DNA of 36,537 nucleotides from a virus (IMGVR_UViG_3300042453_002324:1-36537); one strand, 5' to 3'. Positions 16,607-27,137 are shown, numbered from the stretch's first letter. Program-made: numbers and translations. Notes: generated by a model from the sequence alone, not told the origin.

Positions 16607-17827
16607 TTAGCTGGCAGCCTTGGCGAGCCGTCCGACGAACTCGGGGGCGTGGTTGGCCACGCCGAACCGGGTGTTCGCCACGTAGAGCACCTGGCGATTC
16701 CGCATCAGGATCTCTCGGCCGGCTTCGATTTCGAGGCCGCTGTCCTTCACGCCGATGACCGATGCCATCGAGAAGTCGCCGTAGAGAGCCAGCGTCGTCG
16801 CGGGCAGGCCCTTGACGAGGTAGACCGGGGCACCGAACACCGTCGGAACCACTCGGCCGCCGCCGACCGTCATGGTCGTCTGCTGGGCCGACCACAGCTT
16901 CATCAGGTCCACCCAGCCGGCACGGCTGGCGACCCACGAGCTGGTGCCCATCACGGTCTCGTCGACCTTGCCGACAACGTCAGCGAGGTTGTTGAGCGTG
17001 GTCGCGGCCGATGCCCCGACGGTGATGGTGTTGCCGCTGGCCACCGAGGCCGCGAGGCCGGTGATGGACGGGCTGGACGCGTTGCCGCCGAGCCACGTTG
17101 CGTCGAACTTCTGGGCGTAGGACAGAGCGAACCGCTCGGCCACGAGGCCCGCCACGTCGATCGGCGAGTCCTCGAGCAGGCTCCGGGACACGGCCACGCT
17201 GGCACGCATCTCGTAGAGGGTCAGGTCCGACACGCTCGTCGAGAGATCCTGATCGGTCGTCGCGGTGCCTTCACCGACGAACGACGCGGTGGCATCACCG
17301 ACCTTCGGGAAGCTGATCTTGGCACCGGTGGGCCGGATGACCGTGGCGAGCTGCAGGCCCACCGACGCGTACTGGAGCCGGTTGACGATGGCGTTGTAGA
17401 GCTCGCCGATCACGTACTCGGCGCCCTTGGCGTCGTAGGTCGAGCTGGTCTCGCCCATCGCCCGGATTTCACCGGTGTAGAGCTGCCGCAGGTAGCCGCC
17501 CACCAGGCTGGCTGCCTTGGCGGACGAGTAGGCCTGGACGCCGGAGCGGATGTCCGCCCGCTCGCTGGTGACTTCGCCCTTCTCGACCGCGGCGCGGGGC
17601 TCGCTGTCGGAGACGTTGCTGAGCTTGGAACGAGCCGCCGAGAGCCGGGCCTCGATCGCGTTCTCGCGCTCGACGACCACGTTGAGCTCGTCCGCACGCG
17701 TCAGCGCCCTTTCCAGGGCGGCCGCCGCAGCGCCGTCCTTATCGTCGGCGGGATCGACGTTTCGCAGGTTTTCGATCTGCGGGATGAGGGCGGAGATTTC
17801 GTCCTGGGCGAGGCGGAGCTTATTCAT
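16607..17827 (-). CDS. Major capsid protein, HK97 fold
   Basis: This 406-residue protein matches HK97-type capsid proteins. Residues 1-100 are a charged helical delta/scaffold domain (DEISALIPQIENLRNVDPAD; VVERENAIEARLSAARSKL). The mature domain shows 'VIGELYNAIVNRLQYASVGL', 'GAKISFPKVGDATASFVGEG', 'LYEMRASVAVSRSLLEDSP', 'GWVDLMKLWSAQQTT' and the C-terminal 'NRQVLYVANTRFGVANHAPE'. The delta domain should be removed by the prohead protease encoded at 20978-21685. The ribosome site is GAGGACAACC before the ATG. The gene is isolated: 84 bases of non-coding sequence precede it and a strong hairpin follows, consistent with separate high expression. Confidence 0.92.
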   Translation of the reverse strand: MNKLRLAQDEISALIPQIENLRNVDPADDKDGAAAAALERALTRADELNVVVERENAIEARLSAARSKLSNVSDSEPRAAVEKGEVTSERADIRSGVQAYSSAKAASLVGGYLRQLYTGEIRAMGETSSTYDAKGAEYVIGELYNAIVNRLQYASVGLQLATVIRPTGAKISFPKVGDATASFVGEGTATTDQDLSTSVSDLTLYEMRASVAVSRSLLEDSPIDVAGLVAERFALSYAQKFDATWLGGNASSPSITGLAASVASGNTITVGASAATTLNNLADVVGKVDETVMGTSSWVASRAGWVDLMKLWSAQQTTMTVGGGRVVPTVFGAPVYLVKGLPATTLALYGDFSMASVIGVKDSGLEIEAGREILMRNRQVLYVANTRFGVANHAPEFVGRLAKAAS

Positions 17828-17911: not shown

Positions 17912-18184
17912 CTACGGTAGATTTTTTCTGCACTTGCCGTCGGGGCACGTGCCGCACTTGCAAGCCCACCGGCTGCCGTCAGGCCGCACTGTGTAGCCTT
18001 TGCCACCGCAGGGGCAGGCGGCCGGGGCCGCTGGCTTCTCGGGCTCTCGTGCTGGCTCGACTGCCAGAGACGCATAGGCCACGGTCACGCAGCCAGCGGC
18101 CCTGGCACGCTCGGCGGCAATGCTCGACGGGTCGTGCGATGCCCACGCCAGCAGGTAGAGAATCCAGTGCCAGAGAGCGTGCAT
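17912..18184 (-). CDS. Small membrane-associated Cys-motif protein
   Basis: This 90-residue protein has an amphipathic or hydrophobic N-terminus (MHALWHWILYLLAWASHD) and a C-terminal cluster of cysteines (CPCGGKGYTVRPDGSRWACK, then CGTCPDG), a zinc-ribbon or DnaJ-like CxCG arrangement. No family is recognised. It closes the membrane-protein block and begins directly after the stop of the preceding gene (TAAATG). About 84 bases without a gene follow before the capsid start; I see nothing there beyond the capsid ribosome site. Confidence 0.6.
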   Translation of the reverse strand: MHALWHWILYLLAWASHDPSSIAAERARAAGCVTVAYASLAVEPAREPEKPAAPAACPCGGKGYTVRPDGSRWACKCGTCPDGKCRKNLP

Positions 18185-18463
18185 TTACCACCTCGCATTC
18201 GAGAGAACGAGATGGCCGTCGGTGCCAACGACCGCGTGGGCGAGCTGCACCTCGTCGGCATCGGGGGCCGGCTCCGCAAACAGCAGAGCCGTCAGGCCGA
18301 ACCGTGCGGCCACGCCTGCCACCTTCGCCAGGAATCGCAGCACGGGCCGGTCGGGCCGCGGCGGCACTGGCCGGATCGGAGAGTCTGGGGCGGTGGCCAG
18401 CCACCACGTGGCAGCCACGATGATCACGGCAGCAACGGCCAGCTTCTTCTGGGAGTCAGACAT
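18185..18463 (-). CDS. Small membrane protein
   Basis: This 92-residue protein has one clear transmembrane helix near residues 8-24 (LAVAAVIIVAATWWLATA), a proline-rich linker (RPVPPRPDRP) and a second, weaker hydrophobic helix near 43-62. A hydrophilic C-terminus ends NARW. Its start overlaps the stop of the upstream gene by eight bases. It could be a lysis accessory or a virion membrane component. A longer upstream start overlaps the GlsB-like gene in another frame and is rejected. Confidence 0.6.
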   Translation of the reverse strand: MSDSQKKLAVAAVIIVAATWWLATAPDSPIRPVPPRPDRPVLRFLAKVAGVAARFGLTALLFAEPAPDADEVQLAHAVVGTDGHLVLSNARW

Positions 18464-18686
18464 TCGATTCGCTCCAGAGTCGGTGCAGGTACAGAACCAC
18501 GACGGCGCCGATGATCGAGCCGACAAACCCAGCGGGGCCGGTGCCGAATGGCAGACCACCGGCCACGCTGCCAACCACGCCAACGGCGATCGTCGGCAGC
18601 CAGCCGGCCGGCAGCTTCGACGGCAGCAGGGCCTGGGCCACGGTGCCCACGATCGCCCCAAAGATCGCCCACAGAATCAGGTTCAT
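18456..18686 (-). CDS. GlsB/YeaQ/YmgE-type membrane protein, holin-like candidate
   Basis: This 76-residue protein has three hydrophobic Gly-rich segments: 'LILWAIFGAIVGTVAQALL', 'WLPTIAVGVVGSVAGGLPF' and 'GFVGSIIGAVVVLYLHRLW'. This matches the transglycosylase-associated (GlsB/YeaQ) inner-membrane family in size and topology. The cellular function is poorly known, but small three-helix membrane proteins in a phage lysis block often act as holins. Its ATG overlaps the stop of the peptidase gene, so the two are translated together. Confidence 0.72.
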   Translation of the reverse strand: MNLILWAIFGAIVGTVAQALLPSKLPAGWLPTIAVGVVGSVAGGLPFGTGPAGFVGSIIGAVVVLYLHRLWSESNV

Positions 18687-19750
18687 TGTGCGAGCCCCCA
18701 GTCGGCGTTTTCGAGTTTCTTGTATTCAAACGTGGTGCCAGAGATTGCCCATGAGTCGCCCTGCCTCATGGCCGTTTCGATGTTGTCCTTGCTGGCCCAG
18801 AACGAGCCGTCGGGCTGATCGCTTGGCCAGCGTGGCCCCGCCACCCAGGACGTCTGCCAGGAGTTTTGGATCAGCGCGCCGTCGCGGCCGCCGCCGTTCT
18901 TCTGGTGCCGGATGCCCCAGACGAGCATGGCGTGGCTCCAGGACGTCCCGCGTGTCAGGAATCCATCGGAGTCACGCTGCCGCGGGGTCGGGCCGTAGCC
19001 CACCTGCGAGCAGACGGCCACCGGGTAGCCAGACTCCAGGGCCGATGCCAGCTCGTCCCACGTCTGCACCTGGGCGACTGCGTAGCACTTGTTCTGGTGG
19101 GCCAGCTTGGCGAGCTCAAGCGGCACGCCACGCGAGCCCCATTCACGCGAGAGCGGAATGGAGTAGGTCGTGAGATCGACTGAACCGTATGGCTTTCGGA
19201 ACAGCACGCCGCCGACATCCGGCGTCTTGCACTTGCCGGAGATCCACCGAGCCGCGCCGAATCCGGTGGCGCCGTCGCCGCCGAACTGTGTCGGCTGGCC
19301 CATGCCGAACGTGCGGGCTCCGCCGTAGATCGGCTCGGTGGCCACGGCCGTCGGCGATGATCCCTTGCCGGCCAGCCAATCCGTCGCCAGTGCCGTTTGG
19401 CATCCGAGACCAAACGCAAACGAAACGCATGTCCCGGCGTTGCCCTGGTTCCAGCACTGCCACGGCTCGCCGTAGGTCCGCTGGTGGGCTTTGTTCGTGG
19501 CACGGTAGAGAAACACGTCGAGGCCCTTGGCCTGGCGGACGGCATCAGCACCGGCTTCTTGGAACGTGGGCTTGTCGAGCTCCTGCAGGAACGTCCGCAC
19601 GCCCACGGGGTCGGGCCGGTAGCCGAACGAGTCATCGACGCGGCGTAGAACTCGGTGCGTGTAGTGGTCGATGACTGCGCCAAGAATGGCTGCGCAGATC
19701 ACAAACGCGATTGCCGAGAATGTCCAGACGGCCTTGCGGCGAGACATCAC
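18683..19750 (-). CDS. Membrane-anchored papain-family (C1) cysteine peptidase
   Basis: This 355-residue protein has a single N-terminal hydrophobic helix (residues 9-28, Ala/Ile/Gly-rich) after a MMSRRK basic start, so the catalytic domain should face the periplasm. The domain has the papain constellation: Gln102 and Cys108 in WNQGNAGTCVSFAF, His273 in SWSHAMLVWG and Asn296 in ALIQNSWQTSW. All four catalytic positions are present. The GTG at 19750 overlaps the upstream stop (GTGA); an ATG follows at 19747. Papain-type C1 peptidases are rare in phages. Embedded among membrane proteins and a lipoprotein with no other recognisable lysis enzyme, it is the best endolysin or cell-wall protease candidate. 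An alternative role is maturation of another phage protein. Confidence 0.85.
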   Translation of the reverse strand: MMSRRKAVWTFSAIAFVICAAILGAVIDHYTHRVLRRVDDSFGYRPDPVGVRTFLQELDKPTFQEAGADAVRQAKGLDVFLYRATNKAHQRTYGEPWQCWNQGNAGTCVSFAFGLGCQTALATDWLAGKGSSPTAVATEPIYGGARTFGMGQPTQFGGDGATGFGAARWISGKCKTPDVGGVLFRKPYGSVDLTTYSIPLSREWGSRGVPLELAKLAHQNKCYAVAQVQTWDELASALESGYPVAVCSQVGYGPTPRQRDSDGFLTRGTSWSHAMLVWGIRHQKNGGGRDGALIQNSWQTSWVAGPRWPSDQPDGSFWASKDNIETAMRQGDSWAISGTTFEYKKLENADWGLAQ

Positions 19751-20205
19751 TCAACGGCCTCCTCTGCCGCTTGGGCCAGCTCGCGTAGGGCGGCGCACCA
19801 CTTGCCACGGGCCGCCGCGTCGATCGGCCCGCCGCTCGTGCCGACGGCCTGGTCGAGGAATCGCCCGGCGGCTGCCGAGACGTGCGGCTGATTGCGAGTG
19901 AAACTCTCAGGTAGAAACATGCCCTCGCTCGTGGCGATGCGGACGTCCTCGAGCTGGGCCGCGGTGGTGATCCGCGGGGCGGCTGCGGCGCCGTCTTTGT
20001 CGAGGGCCTCGGCCACGCCGCGGCACAGGCCAGCAAACGCCGCGGCGTCGTCCGGGGCCGATGGGCCGATGAACTTCCCGCGAAGGTCGAGGCCGGCGGC
20101 GGGTGTCGGGCGGTGGGTAGGCCGCGGCCAATTCTCCACGCAGGCCGCAAGCACCACGCCGCCGGCCAAAGCAGCAACGGCGATGTATCTCTGGCGATCG
20201 GTCAT
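19747..20205 (-). CDS. Lipoprotein, outer spanin-like candidate
   Basis: This 152-residue protein opens with a short basic start, a hydrophobic segment (YIAVAALAGGVVLAAC) and a lipobox L-A-A-C with Cys22, so the mature protein is probably lipid-anchored. A proline-rich stretch follows (WPRPTHRPTPAAG), then a helical, Ala-rich domain. Signal plus lipobox plus proline-rich segment resembles outer-membrane spanin subunits, though the mature part (about 130 residues) is longer than most. Its ATG overlaps the stop of the coiled-coil protein. A virion or peptidase-partner lipoprotein is the alternative. Confidence 0.6.
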   Translation of the reverse strand: MTDRQRYIAVAALAGGVVLAACVENWPRPTHRPTPAAGLDLRGKFIGPSAPDDAAAFAGLCRGVAEALDKDGAAAAPRITTAAQLEDVRIATSEGMFLPESFTRNQPHVSAAAGRFLDQAVGTSGGPIDAAARGKWCAALRELAQAAEEAVE

Positions 20206-20480
20206 TTCTTCTCGCTCCCGTGCAGCAGGTCGAGCCACAACGTGTCGACGGCCTTGGAGGCCTCCTCGTCCAGCTTCTTGACGGCCGCCAGTTGGTCGCG
20301 GACCTCGAGCAGCGAGTCAATGGCCTCCCGGGCGTCTGGTGCCACAGGCGTGGCAGCCGGAGCCATTGCCGGGACGCGGAACAGATCCTCGGCCGACGGC
20401 ATTGCGGGCAGAGACTTGGCGCCGCCCTTCGGCCAGAAGAGGAACGCGAGCGAGGCCAGGACGAGTAGGCCGGTGATCAT
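20202..20480 (-). CDS. Single-pass membrane protein with coiled coil, inner spanin-like candidate
   Basis: This 92-residue protein has an N-terminal transmembrane helix (residues 2-16, ITGLLVLASLAFLFW), a Pro/Ala-rich linker (PAMAPAATPVAP) and a charged heptad-like C-terminal helix (AIDSLLEVRDQLAAVKKLDE). This is the topology of an inner spanin subunit, a membrane anchor plus periplasmic coiled coil, and it directly precedes the lipoprotein gene with an ATGA overlap. Function is inferred from topology and pairing only. Confidence 0.55.
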   Translation of the reverse strand: MITGLLVLASLAFLFWPKGGAKSLPAMPSAEDLFRVPAMAPAATPVAPDAREAIDSLLEVRDQLAAVKKLDEEASKAVDTLWLDLLHGSEKK

Positions 20481-20833
20481 GTGGAGCTCCTTGAGATTCT
20501 GAGAAGGGCCTCGACGGCACCGGCAGCGAGCGAGAGAACGAGCAGGCGAGCGGCCGGCCGCAGCAGCATCCACGCGGGCCACGTGGCCACCGGGACGGCC
20601 TTGTCGGCCAGTGAGTCGAACAACACGGCTGCGGCCGTGACGGCCACCTCGCGCTTCTGTGGCCCCGTGAGCGATGCCACAGCGTCCAGGCCAGCCACGG
20701 CCAGCCAGAGCATCTGCACGAGCAGCCGGCCAAACTCCTGCCACGTGAGGCCGTCTCGGGCCTGCTCGCGGGCAGACGCAAAGAACACGTTCAGCCGGGC
20801 CGACACGGTGGCGATTGATTCTTCTGCGATCAT
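20477..20833 (-). CDS. Small membrane protein, holin-like candidate
   Basis: This 118-residue protein has two hydrophobic helices, around residues 30-50 (LLVQMLWLAVAGLDAVASL) and 85-112 (WMLLRPAARLLVLSLAAGAV), separated by a loop with a Lys/Arg. The N-terminal 25 residues are charged and helical. The layout fits a class II holin but no family is recognised. The ATG overlaps the stop of the upstream zinc-ribbon gene (ATGA); a longer frame to 20974 covers that gene and is rejected. Confidence 0.5.
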   Translation of the reverse strand: MIAEESIATVSARLNVFFASAREQARDGLTWQEFGRLLVQMLWLAVAGLDAVASLTGPQKREVAVTAAAVLFDSLADKAVPVATWPAWMLLRPAARLLVLSLAAGAVEALLRISRSST

Positions 20834-20997
20834 CGCTTCCGGCTCCAGATCTCGGTGGCTGGCACGAGCCGTTTCCGGCGGGCGTGGCAGCAGGTGCATT
20901 CCAGACGCTGGACCTGGTCGTCGCCGGCACGGCGCGACGTGATCACGCGGCAGCGGCTCCCGCACTTGCGGCACGACCTACTTGATTCGTGGGACAT
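20830..20997 (-). CDS. Short zinc-ribbon protein
   Basis: This 55-residue protein, MSHESSRSCRKCGSRCRVIT and onwards, has two Cys pairs: CRKCGSRC near residue 9-16 and CTCC near residue 38. The first is a CxxCxxxC arrangement and the second gives the remaining ligands, so a single zinc ribbon is likely. It is rich in Arg (RRAGDD, HARRKRL), which suggests nucleic-acid binding, perhaps a Com-like translational regulator. It overlaps the prohead protease gene by 20 bases and the next gene by four. Confidence 0.6.
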   Translation of the reverse strand: MSHESSRSCRKCGSRCRVITSRRAGDDQVQRLECTCCHARRKRLVPATEIWSRKR

Positions 20998-21685
20998 TCG
21001 ACTTGAGCCTCGCAGAGATCAGCCGGGCCGATGCTGCTGTCAGTGCGTAGGACCAGCGGCGGCGCTTGTCGGCCGCCTCGTCGGCGACACGCTCGGCGAG
21101 CTGCTCGAGCTCGTGGCTGTTCAGGTTCTGCTGCCGCCAGGCGTCGAGCGACCGGAGAGCGGCCGACGACTGCGGATAGGCTGGCCGGGTCACGACAGAG
21201 ACGTCGTACAGGTTGCCTACCTCGCTCACGGTCCGGACGGCCGAGCCGTCGGCCTCTTGCGTCCACGACTCGCCGCCGGGGGCCACCGAGAACGCGAAGG
21301 ATGCCCCGTAGAGATCACCTCGACGGACGAGCGTCACGATGTCGCGGCCGAGCGTCGTGTCGGGCGGGCTGATCGAGTAGGCGAGCCCACGCTCGGAGAT
21401 CGCCAGCTTCAGCGTATCGTTCGTGGTACGGCCGATGGGCTGGCCCTCGTGGTCGAACAGGGCCACAACGTCCATGCCGCCGCGCGGGTCGTTCCGGTGG
21501 CGGCCGACGACCTTGTCGAATGCGGTGGGCGCGAAGACCTCCCGGAAATTACCTAGGTCTTCGCTCTTGGAATTGAACGGCGGCGAAATGCCCTTGATGG
21601 TCGGCGAGGCCGCGGACCGCTCCTCGAGCTCAATCGGCTCAACGCCGGCTGGAACGTATCGCCGTTCGATTTCTTGATCAGGCAT
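20978..21685 (-). CDS. Prohead (capsid maturation) protease, HK97 type
   Basis: This 235-residue serine protease matches the S78/HK97 prohead protease family: 'IKGISPPFNSKSEDLG', 'FREVFAPTAFDKVV', His79 in ALFDHEGQPIGRT and Ser129 in GDLYGASFAFSV. It should remove the capsid scaffold domain. Its ATG overlaps the portal stop by eight bases. The C-terminal part (about residues 175-235) is helical and Arg-rich. The protease is normally next to the capsid gene. Here eight other genes separate them by about 3.1 kb. Confidence 0.88.
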   Translation of the reverse strand: MPDQEIERRYVPAGVEPIELEERSAASPTIKGISPPFNSKSEDLGNFREVFAPTAFDKVVGRHRNDPRGGMDVVALFDHEGQPIGRTTNDTLKLAISERGLAYSISPPDTTLGRDIVTLVRRGDLYGASFAFSVAPGGESWTQEADGSAVRTVSEVGNLYDVSVVTRPAYPQSSAALRSLDAWRQQNLNSHELEQLAERVADEAADKRRRWSYALTAASARLISARLKSNVPRIK

Positions 21686-24607: not shown

Positions 24608-25040
24608 CCGAAGTTGTAATTCCTGTTCTGGCCGATGGTGTTAGCCCGTACTCTTGTTCAATCCGCAGCATGGACGCGGCCAACTTCACAAACATCGTGG
24701 CCGCCGGCGACGACTGCATGTATCGGACCTTTCCGTCCTTGTCTCGCAGCACCAGCACATCCAGGCCTCGCCGCATCTGCTCAAGGTACTTCACCCACTG
24801 CTCGTACATCGTGCAGTACCTGGCAATCGCCTCGACGTCAGCCGGCGTTATGCACCGCATGGCCTGGAGCTTCGGAACCACTTCGTCCCACTTGGCACGG
24901 GACACGCCCACAACCCACTCAGGCGGCTCAATTGCGCCAGATTCCGGCACAGGCTCGCGGTCATTTAGCGGCCTTTTTCCTGGGTTTCCCCTCGCAATCC
25001 TGATGCTGCTCGGCTGCGGCCTCGGTCCTCGCTTGCCCAT
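24561..25040 (-). CDS. Terminase small subunit, P27 family
   Basis: This 159-residue protein begins 'MGKRGPRPQPSSIRIARGNP', the typical P27-family start, and then 'KWDEVVPKLQAMRCITPADV', 'YCTMYEQWVKYLEQ' and 'MFVKLAASMLRIEQEYGL'. It should bind the packaging site and recruit the large subunit. The start lies 80 bases inside the end of the methyltransferase frame, but the family start decides it. Confidence 0.9.
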   Translation of the reverse strand: MGKRGPRPQPSSIRIARGNPGKRPLNDREPVPESGAIEPPEWVVGVSRAKWDEVVPKLQAMRCITPADVEAIARYCTMYEQWVKYLEQMRRGLDVLVLRDKDGKVRYMQSSPAATMFVKLAASMLRIEQEYGLTPSARTGITTSDGETDEDRALRAFTG

Positions 25041-26106
25041 TGGTTTGCTCCCTTTTCAGCCATTGGTCAATCACTGCCTTGGCTACGCATTCAGTCATTC
25101 GCGGCGGAACGCTCATCCCGACCATGTATTTGCCGATCTTTTCGTCTTTAGCCACGTAGTCGTCCGGAAAAGACCCCAGGCGTTTCCACTCGCGGAACGT
25201 CAGACGGCGGCACTGGTCCCAGTGGGTGAACAGAGTGTGGTTAGAAGACAGCGTCGGCGCTGCATCATTTCCGTTTAGTCTCACGTGCTGAAACAACGAC
25301 TGCCGCCCCTCTCTCCGCTGGACTGCTTCCGTGTAGCTCTTGCCCCTTGGAGTAAGCCGCCACCACTTCAAGTCCGAGGCAGCCGGCCCATTGTCCCGCA
25401 TTTCATCCTTGGAAAGTTCTTGGATGTCTGCCGTTGCTTCAGCCGCTGTTATCACCCTTCCAGCCGGAGCCAGGACGAGCGGCGCACACTTTAAGTCTGC
25501 CCTAGCAGCACAGAAAAAGACGCGCTCCCTCTTCTGCGGCACTCCGCACCTGGCAGCATTCACTAGGAACACCTGCGGCCAGTAGCCAATCTCTCGCAGC
25601 CTGTCGCAGACTGCCTTCGTGTATCCCTTGGCATTGCCAACCAACATGCCCTTCACGTTCTCAGCAATCACAACACGCGGCTTGAGCTTTTCCGCCAGGT
25701 TGAGGAAGTCAAAGAACAGGTCAGATAACACCTGCTTCGCCTGTCCTTCGCGAAAGTGCTTTTCTTTGCCCCAGGATTTTTCTCTGCTCCCTGCCATGCT
25801 GAATGTCGAGCAGGGCGGCGATCCATCCAAGATGTCTAGGTCGTGCAGCTCTTCCGGCAGCGCTTCCCCAATCAGCTCGCCTATAGGGCACCTGTAGAAC
25901 AACTTGGGCGCTAGGTTTTTCCTGTAGTGCCACTCCATTTCCGGGTCTATGTCATTTGCAGCCACTACATCACACCCAGCCAGCTTGTAGCCCATAGAAG
26001 ACCCGCCACCGCAGGAGAACGTGGTCATGACGCGCACGCCACGCCGCTGCACTTCATGCAGTTGATCAAGAGTCCACGCACACGCAGGCTTGGTTTTACT
26101 TGCCAT
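24961..26106 (-). CDS. DNA (cytosine-5) methyltransferase
   Basis: This 381-residue protein shows C5-methyltransferase motifs: motif I at 27-43 (TTFSCGGGSSMGYKLAG), motif IV with catalytic Cys99 in GSPPCSTFS, motif VI ENV at 150-152, and motif VIII QKRER at 191-195. Motif IV reads PCS instead of the usual PCQ. Later, 'RRLTFREWKRLGSFPDDY' and 'YMVGMSVPPRMTECVAKAV' match motif IX/X-type regions. It methylates a DNA site that cannot be read from sequence. No restriction partner is adjacent, so it may protect phage DNA or mark it for regulation. It overlaps the ParB-like gene by 11 bases. Confidence 0.88.
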   Translation of the reverse strand: MASKTKPACAWTLDQLHEVQRRGVRVMTTFSCGGGSSMGYKLAGCDVVAANDIDPEMEWHYRKNLAPKLFYRCPIGELIGEALPEELHDLDILDGSPPCSTFSMAGSREKSWGKEKHFREGQAKQVLSDLFFDFLNLAEKLKPRVVIAENVKGMLVGNAKGYTKAVCDRLREIGYWPQVFLVNAARCGVPQKRERVFFCAARADLKCAPLVLAPAGRVITAAEATADIQELSKDEMRDNGPAASDLKWWRLTPRGKSYTEAVQRREGRQSLFQHVRLNGNDAAPTLSSNHTLFTHWDQCRRLTFREWKRLGSFPDDYVAKDEKIGKYMVGMSVPPRMTECVAKAVIDQWLKREQTNGQARTEAAAEQHQDCEGKPRKKAAK

Positions 26107-26614
26107 CAAATTGAAACCCACACTCCGGACAGCAGTGCTCCATCTCCATCGCAGAGACATCAACCTCTCGCGATCCGGTGGCAGTGTCAGTTTTCTCCTG
26201 CTTGTAGATGCCAGCCGCGTCGCCCATTTCAACAAACATTTCACTAAGGGCTTCGCTTGCAGCCTCCACGCTCTCTAGCAACTGCTTGAGGGCTGCCGTG
26301 TCTGTGTCTGCCATTGCAGACAGCGGGTCTAGCGACAGCAGGAGCTTGTCTGCCTCGGCCTCGTTCACGTCAAGGACCAGAACCGGCACGTGTTGTTCCG
26401 GTGTTGTTTCTGCCCGAAGATGGCCATCCACAAGCATCAGCCGCCCGTCCTTCAGCCTCCTGGCTAAGACCGCGTCCGCATAGCCAACCTCAGCCAGAAT
26501 TCCCTTGATCGCTGCCTTCTGCTTCTCTGGATGCACTCGCCAGTTCTTTGGATTCGGGACAAGATCGGCGGCTCGCACTCGCTCAAGTGCCACAATTCGA
26601 TCACGTATCTTCAT
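26096..26614 (-). CDS. ParB-like nuclease-fold protein with C-terminal zinc ribbon (second copy)
   Basis: This 172-residue protein has the ParB N-terminal domain signature: 'VRAADLVPNPKNWRVHPEKQ', 'ILAEVGYADAVLARRL', 'LMLVDGHLRAETTP' and 'VPVLVLDVNEAEADKLLL'. The G-H-x-R box is present. The last residues (EHCCPECGFQFDGK) form a small Cys ribbon. It is a close paralogue of the gene upstream, which it overlaps by 14 bases. ParB-fold proteins in phages can act as nucleases, as NTP-dependent DNA clamps, or with a methyltransferase; no clear choice is possible. The methyltransferase follows directly. Confidence 0.82.
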   Translation of the reverse strand: MKIRDRIVALERVRAADLVPNPKNWRVHPEKQKAAIKGILAEVGYADAVLARRLKDGRLMLVDGHLRAETTPEQHVPVLVLDVNEAEADKLLLSLDPLSAMADTDTAALKQLLESVEAASEALSEMFVEMGDAAGIYKQEKTDTATGSREVDVSAMEMEHCCPECGFQFDGK

Positions 26615-27137
26615 CTTCACCCTCGCTGTTGTTGTTATTCCATGCGTGCCCGCATCGTGGGCATGTGACCACCCCGTCCTCGGCCGCAGGGCCGTCGCTG
26701 TCTGCCTTGCCTGCTTCCTGTTCCACGTAGAGCTTGGCGTCTGCCGCCAGGTCGGCGTACATCTGCTGCAGCCCCTCGCTGCCTGTGTCAACCTCTCGGA
26801 GCAGGGCATCAAGGGCCGTTGAGTTGGTCTCGGCCAGGGCCGCCAGAGGGTCCAGCGACAGGAGCAGCTTGTCGGCCTCGGCCTGGTCAATGTCCAGGAC
26901 CAGAACCGGCACCTCCTGATCGGGCGTGGTCTCTGCCCGGAGGTGGCCGTCCACAAGCATCAGGGAGCCGTCTGGCAGCTCGCGGGCCAGGAGGGCGTCT
27001 GCGTAGCCAACCTCGGCCAGGATGCCACGCAGGGCGTCCTGCTGGGCCTTTGGATGGGTCCGCCAGTTCCTTGGGTTGGGCGTCAAATCCCCAGCCCGGA
27101 CGCGGCGTAGCTCTTTTACTCTGTCTCGGATTTGCAT
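26601..27137 (-). CDS. ParB-like nuclease-fold protein with C-terminal zinc ribbon (first copy)
   Basis: This 178-residue protein is the tandem partner of the 172-residue one downstream. It shares MQIRDRVKELRRVRAGDL, ILAEVGYADALLARELPDG, MLVDGHLRAETTPDQEVPVL and LLLSLDPLAALAET with small changes. It ends in a Cys motif (VTCPRCGHAWNN) followed by a Glu/Asp-rich tail. The start ATG is preceded by AGGGGGGG about eight bases upstream. The tandem copies look like a duplication that has since diverged. Confidence 0.82.
   Translation of the reverse strand: MQIRDRVKELRRVRAGDLTPNPRNWRTHPKAQQDALRGILAEVGYADALLARELPDGSLMLVDGHLRAETTPDQEVPVLVLDIDQAEADKLLLSLDPLAALAETNSTALDALLREVDTGSEGLQQMYADLAADAKLYVEQEAGKADSDGPAAEDGVVTCPRCGHAWNNNNSEGEDEDT

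Follow-up and report, generated by a model that had tools for sequence, protein, structure and literature searches.

We analyzed an entire virus record of 36,537 bp (IMGVR_UViG_3300042453_002324:1-36537, hereafter the window), which carries an integrase gene at one end, and found that a block of small genes at positions 17,912 to 20,997 is probably a lysis module in which a membrane-anchored papain-type peptidase (C1) serves as the recognisable envelope-degrading enzyme. In the same reading, the window virus would be a temperate siphovirus-like phage of Planctomycetota. We infer the lysis role from genome organisation, and the topology, activation route, substrate and individual roles of the proteins described below are likewise our proposals. 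Several results support this reading. Where an endolysin would be expected, none recognisable by Pfam was found in the window or in 26 long related contigs, and a candidate holin (HOL) was constantly linked to a peptidase. The cassette was retained in a cluster of head and tail genes that is passed on vertically, in which C1 and HOL had ω values of approximately 0.1. C1 has a predicted papain fold with invariant catalytic residues, and the cassette is mobile and has copies in Planctomycetota. Finally, a second type of cassette fills the same genomic slots with a signal-bearing trypsin/HtrA-like protease.

An earlier reading of the sequence alone (the sequence-only reading) had described eight overlapping minus-strand open reading frames (ORFs) between the prohead protease and the capsid gene, and these were borne out, coordinates included. 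They are listed here with their flanking genes (lengths in amino acids, aa):

20978..21685, minus strand: S78 prohead protease, flanking gene (Pfam PF04586, E = 1e-35)
20830..20997, minus strand: ZN, 55 aa, zinc-ribbon-like ORF, which goes with the prohead protease/head-gene backbone
20477..20833, minus strand: HOL, 118 aa, hydrophobic/amphipathic helices, candidate holin and first cassette gene (conserved pattern, hydropathy and linkage)
20202..20480, minus strand: CC, 92 aa, single-pass membrane protein (hydrophobic segment 1-19)
19747..20205, minus strand: LIP, 152 aa, N-terminal anchor and conserved globular domain (alignment of 16 relatives)
18683..19747, minus strand: C1, 354 aa, predicted papain-fold cysteine peptidase with N-terminal membrane anchor (AlphaFold2 model, structure match and conserved residues)
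18456..18686, minus strand: GLS, 76 aa, three hydrophobic segments, loosely GlsB/YeaQ-like (hydropathy, alignment and weak PF04226 similarity)
18185..18463, minus strand: MEM, 92 aa, membrane protein (hydrophobic segments 8-26 and 44-62)
17912..18184, minus strand: CYS, 90 aa, CxCGG and CKCGxC motifs
16607..17827, minus strand: HK97-type major capsid protein, flanking gene (Pfam PF05065, E = 5e-28)

Neighbouring genes of the block abut or share a few bases, with junctions of the ATGA/TGATG type. Because homologues of the cassette genes keep their order in dozens to hundreds of further contigs, as a search of related phages for conserved synteny revealed, the gene order is more than chance. The window genome is near complete, since the genes of its two ends adjoin each other in a relative (G014).

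Among the genes of the block, C1 was the sole firm assignment. Its likeliest start is the ATG at 19747, with an alternative GTG start one codon upstream. Counted from the ATG, the catalytic residues are Q101, C107, H272 and N295, which align with the catalytic residues of papain; the catalytic cysteine named in the sequence-only reading as Cys108 is thus present, but carries that number only from the GTG start. Pfam gave a weak match alone (Peptidase_C39_2, E = 0.031) and the PHROGs search gave none; as C1 matched no muralytic family in either collection, it does not qualify as a canonical muralytic endolysin. The AlphaFold2 model (predicted local distance difference test score, pLDDT, 82.4; predicted template modelling score 0.83) best matched xylellain (Z = 20.6, root mean square deviation 3.0 over 240 residues), followed by cathepsins and papain, so that in its predicted fold C1 is a papain-type peptidase. 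Among phage proteins with a similar fold, Foldseek found some annotated as N-acetylmuramidase, 'Peptidoglycan binding-like' and Lysin A. The glutamine, cysteine and histidine were present in 158/158 distinct relatives and the asparagine in 152/158; three of the six relatives without it have a gap at that position. The full catalytic set claimed earlier for this peptidase was therefore confirmed, and the structure prediction that had been proposed as a check pointed the same way. An N-terminal hydrophobic segment was found in 147 of 157 relatives, with starts corrected by in-frame upstream sequence. In the window protein, basic residues precede the anchor, which is fairly hydrophobic (hydropathy 2.34). 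In two relatives, L050 (L050:12181-13275) and L057, C1 is swapped for an allele of ~50% identity beside a terminase and portal ~95% or more identical to those of the window, which may reflect a change of substrate or host.

Relatives of C1 were found in 45 viral contigs, and relatives of the window prohead protease in 29. From the gene maps, the conserved unit has the order HOL-(CC)-LIP-(TM81)-C1-(GLS)-MEM-(CYS), in which TM81 is an 81-aa membrane gene present between LIP and C1 in most relatives and missing from the window. This unit occupied the prohead protease/capsid interval, as in the window, but also the region upstream of the small terminase gene, a position ahead of the tail-fibre genes, the end of the tail genes with an integrase adjoining, and the end of a late operon convergent with early genes. 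Its identity was uncoupled from that of the backbone: relative to the window, C1 of L007 is 92% identical and its large terminase (TerL) 37%, whereas in L050 TerL and GLS are 95% identical and C1 50%. These comparisons indicate that the cassette is transferred in one piece, both between phages with unrelated backbones and between different places in the genome. The single module of eight genes envisaged by the sequence-only reading holds for seven of them, which form the conserved unit, and fails for the zinc ribbon: in other backbones ZN lies beside the prohead protease without the cassette, and we ruled it out as a cassette gene. We also observed that some relatives encode a prohead protease with an inserted stretch, SLDYDRTFTAAPG...DVWIDDYPEG (L062:695-1693, L138:4045-5058), which by eye resembles a HAD-type phosphatase motif, and that a metallophosphoesterase gene (PHROG 221), located in the window where the tail genes end (464-1489), also occurs close to the cassette in several further backbones.

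The variable position of the cassette bears on the possibility that C1 acts in the maturation of heads or virions, its gene being grouped with those of the prohead protease and capsid. The arrangement in the lineage of the window, with the block between these two genes, would fit such a role. However, other backbones carry the block far from the head genes, by tail fibres, terminase or integrase; the S78 protease is separately present; and C1 has an N-terminal membrane anchor and membrane proteins as its constant partners. We accordingly disfavoured a head-maturation role and consider it very improbable.

We further analyzed the linkage between HOL and the peptidase. HOL contains two moderately hydrophobic segments (37-55 and 93-111) and conserved positions G28, W31, F34, GPxKK and an RPxxR...AxG pattern; no PHROG or PDB relative was found. 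By its size, hydrophobic segments and linkage to the peptidase cassette, it is the best holin candidate of the block. HOL used alone as a query retrieved more than 400 viral loci. In two further HOL scans, all 126 loci with enough downstream DNA (25 more were too short to judge) contained either C1 (98) or a second cassette (28) within eight genes after HOL, and none of these 126 had HOL without a peptidase cassette. Over all distinct neighbourhoods, 149 had C1, 61 had the second cassette and 0 had another arrangement; this larger set was partly retrieved with C1 and C1b queries, and the 126 HOL-only loci provide the fair count.

The second (type II) cassette, first found in L138 (L138:5055-8524), has the order HOL-x83-x79-x125-C1b-TRYP-x101-x93 and fills the same genome slots as the C1 (type I) cassette (80 loci retrieved with C1b; L179-L258). 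TRYP begins like a signal peptide and contains a trypsin/HtrA domain as well as two CxxC motifs. C1b is a Cys/His protein without a signal, and its likeness to papain consists in a QxxxxxC...GHA pattern; it was rejected as a demonstrated papain homologue, with no match in the PDB. Some type II cassettes (L185, L192, L194, L198 and L247) contain an inserted gene of ~420-450 aa between x125 and C1b. Separately, one phage that already has a C1 cassette encodes a second secreted trypsin-like protease of 242 aa near its integrase (L175:18393-19121).

The constancy of the linkage between C1 and HOL is also relevant to whether C1 could be an anti-host-defence protease or an intracellular effector. 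Phages are known to encode many kinds of protease, but the N-terminal anchor and the membrane-protein partners of C1 indicate the envelope, and we give such a role scarcely any credence.

The sequence-only reading had reported no lysozyme, amidase or CHAP-type gene elsewhere, and had named a recognisable endolysin as the finding that would overturn its interpretation. We looked for one using Pfam. Among the listed matches for the genes of the window and of 26 long related contigs (representatives of otherwise unassigned predicted proteins, with a minimum length of 95 aa), there was no lysozyme, amidase, CHAP, NlpC/P60, transglycosylase, M15 or M23 domain; the matches seen instead were to terminases, capsids, methyltransferases, recombinases and similar proteins. 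In six-frame searches, in which control genomes were positive, Phage_lysozyme (PF00959) was found in 0 of 18 records and Amidase_2 (PF01510) in 0 of 22.

Several points weigh against the lysis reading. Proteases of the C1 family usually cleave proteins, not peptidoglycan, and some divergent chromosomal relatives of C1 lack the N-terminal anchor. HOL has no recognised holin relative or relative of known function. C1b showed no profile similarity to C1 (hhalign) and its AlphaFold2 model had a pLDDT of 32. The scans of the 26 contigs excluded a few small remainders, and one family was left out of the listed matches. Moreover, planctomycetes have lysozyme-sensitive peptidoglycan (PMC4432640), and a muralytic enzyme is therefore to be expected, perhaps hidden among the unassigned genes.

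This last point leads to an alternative in which the block is a lysis cassette, but the wall cutter is an unrecognised muralytic protein (LIP, CYS or one encoded elsewhere), and C1 processes or activates proteins or clears wall proteins. Many phage genes, including those of several small cassette proteins, have no assignment, which leaves room for such an enzyme. However, nothing like a known muralytic family was found in the window or the 26 contigs, LIP had no match to a solved structure, and the endolysin of mycobacteriophage L5, which possesses a peptidase only, lyses cells (PMC3314691). We therefore regard a hidden muralytic enzyme as unlikely, though as the most credible of the alternatives.

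The small proteins agreed less well with the roles that had been proposed for them. CC is present in most type I cassettes, but is missing from several lineages, in which LIP gains a further hydrophobic segment at its N-terminus. The LAAC lipoprotein assignment of LIP stands for the window and its close relatives; in the other relatives of the 16-sequence alignment, the lipobox cysteine is replaced by Tyr, Val or Ala. A two-component spanin of the Rz/Rz1 kind was consequently ruled out for CC and LIP, contrary to the sequence-only reading, and as both proteins failed this test, the outer-membrane step has no assigned protein. For GLS, described earlier as a GlsB/YeaQ-type three-helix protein, the three hydrophobic segments were found, but the similarity to PF04226 (Transgly_assoc) lay below the cut-off (15.7 versus 25.3 bits; E = 0.019). 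MEM was conserved in most type I cassettes. The CYS homologue encoded in planctomycete chromosomes includes a thioredoxin domain (Thioredoxin_7 of Pfam, E = 1e-7), which suggests that envelope disulfides may be part of the target.

The hosts are probably Planctomycetota, as suggested by cassette copies in genomes of this phylum. The nearest contig among genomes was a phage-like contig in a metagenome-assembled genome of Planctomycetota, and in the sampled genomes of the phylum HOL was found in 4/392 and C1 in 14/392. HOL was found in 0 of 385 Bacteroidota genomes, although this sample included no internal positive control, and no relative of C1, C1b or HOL was detected among the cultured phages of INPHARED. 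Two matches in Mucilaginibacter were discarded: they were partial and ~35% identical, with no cassette genes nearby.

One planctomycete genus was sampled with four species (G140, G512, G486 and G358), and in every one of them we found HOL-CC-LIP-C1-MEM-CYS within a cluster of ~22 kb that occupies one chromosomal site and also contains genes for terminase, portal, capsid and tail (loci L308 and L310, G140:C4 ~1505.9-1530.4 kb; L300/L312; L302/L313; L307/L263/L314). No recognisable integrase or replication gene was found in this cluster. Orthologues diverged about as much as flanking chromosomal genes (synonymous divergence, dS, mostly 0.4-1.7), and ω was mostly 0.05-0.25 (C1, 0.09-0.10; HOL, 0.10-0.15). 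By these estimates the cluster is under purifying selection (ω ~0.1). This is the pattern of a gene-transfer-agent-like element that is maintained by vertical descent and has kept the cassette along with head and tail genes, and the cluster is a candidate gene transfer agent.

These observations also help to weigh the possibility that the block is a moron-like module that modifies the envelope or excludes superinfecting phages. Its numerous small membrane proteins and the mosaic exchange of its alleles are what such a module might display. However, its genes overlap within the late operon, the HOL and peptidase cassette was present in every long relative mapped (relatives chosen via cassette genes), and purifying selection acts on it in an element that has no recognisable integrase, where terminase, portal and capsid genes accompany it. 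An exclusion module would also leave the missing endolysin unexplained, and we judge it improbable.

Returning to the lysis module, which we prefer, the following course may be proposed. Tailed-phage lysis of Gram-negative hosts needs proteins against all three envelope layers (PMC9239132). Late in infection, HOL would make the inner membrane permeable or collapse its energised state; in this membrane, C1 would be anchored by its N-terminus with the catalytic domain toward the periplasm, in the manner of a signal-anchor endolysin. Once freed or activated, C1 would cleave the load-bearing layer, whether wall protein, the peptide bridges of peptidoglycan, or both. CC, LIP, TM81, GLS and MEM might assist disruption of the membrane and outer membrane, and CYS might reduce disulfides or bind metal. 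As to possible substrates, an SDS (sodium dodecyl sulfate)-resistant protein wall (PMC3422733) and, later, lysozyme-sensitive peptidoglycan (PMC4432640) have been described in planctomycetes, and a peptidase-only endolysin is on record (PMC3314691). Overall, the sequence-only reading was supported in part. Its central idea withstood tests that might have overturned it and gained strong comparative backing from the papain fold, the mobility of the block, the lack of an endolysin recognisable by Pfam in the window and the 26 contigs, and the probable hosts; its spanin pair and its zinc ribbon were not upheld.

A stronger version is that this planctomycete phage group and the gene-transfer-agent-like element open the envelope by proteolysis alone, with no muralytic endolysin, using two interchangeable cassettes, one papain-type and the other comprising an HtrA-type serine protease and a Cys/His protein. 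We advance this version tentatively, as a possibility that somewhat less speaks for than against.

Elsewhere in the window, two similar tandem genes (26096-26536 and 26601-27086) with a LMLVDGHLRAETTP motif appeared ParB-like by eye, and a C5 cytosine methyltransferase gene (24961-26244) adjoins them.

To our knowledge, known tailed phages of diderm bacteria lyse their hosts through a peptidoglycan-cutting enzyme. A protease as the only recognisable lytic candidate would bear directly on which planctomycete layer carries load; the wall was long called proteinaceous, and peptidoglycan was shown later (PMC3422733, PMC4432640). In the literature, we found no description of a papain-type phage lysis enzyme, of lysis by a planctomycete phage or of such a cassette, and the one planctomycete phage for which we found a description causes chronic infection and does not lyse its host (PMC10945688). 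The cassette could serve as an egress marker for a large group of uncultured phages, and it has drawn attention to what may be a gene-transfer-agent-like element of Planctomycetota.

Among known systems, the cassette resembles S-R-Rz/Rz1 of phage lambda (holin, endolysin and spanin) in that compact, overlapping small membrane genes surround one hydrolase in a late operon and are exchanged as a unit. It differs in that the hydrolase is predicted to be a papain-fold protease and not a muralytic enzyme, in its additional accessory membrane proteins and in its lack of a conserved lipoprotein outer spanin. As in signal-anchor-release (SAR) endolysins (phage 21, Mu gp22), the N-terminus of C1 has basic residues and an anchor, and the catalytic domain is expected outside the inner membrane; however, the domain is a papain-type peptidase, and with so hydrophobic an anchor release is uncertain. 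The peptidases of mycobacteriophage Lysin A (N1-N5, M23; L5 gp10) provide a precedent for peptidase-only lysis, and in Foldseek the fold of C1 weakly resembled that of two LysA proteins. Lysin A enzymes, however, have other peptidase sequences and do not belong to a cassette of this type, and most have predicted wall-binding domains. With xylellain and the cathepsin/papain family (MEROPS C1), C1 shares the predicted fold, the catalytic Gln-Cys-His-Asn and the NSW motif, at an identity of ~20%, but it is phage-encoded, membrane-anchored and located in a lysis-like cassette. The chromosomal copy alone resembles the gene transfer agent of Rhodobacter capsulatus (RcGTA) in its vertical inheritance, integrase-less head-tail cluster, purifying selection and fixed site; unlike RcGTA, it resides in Planctomycetota, carries the C1 cassette and is a putative agent of DNA packaging and transfer.

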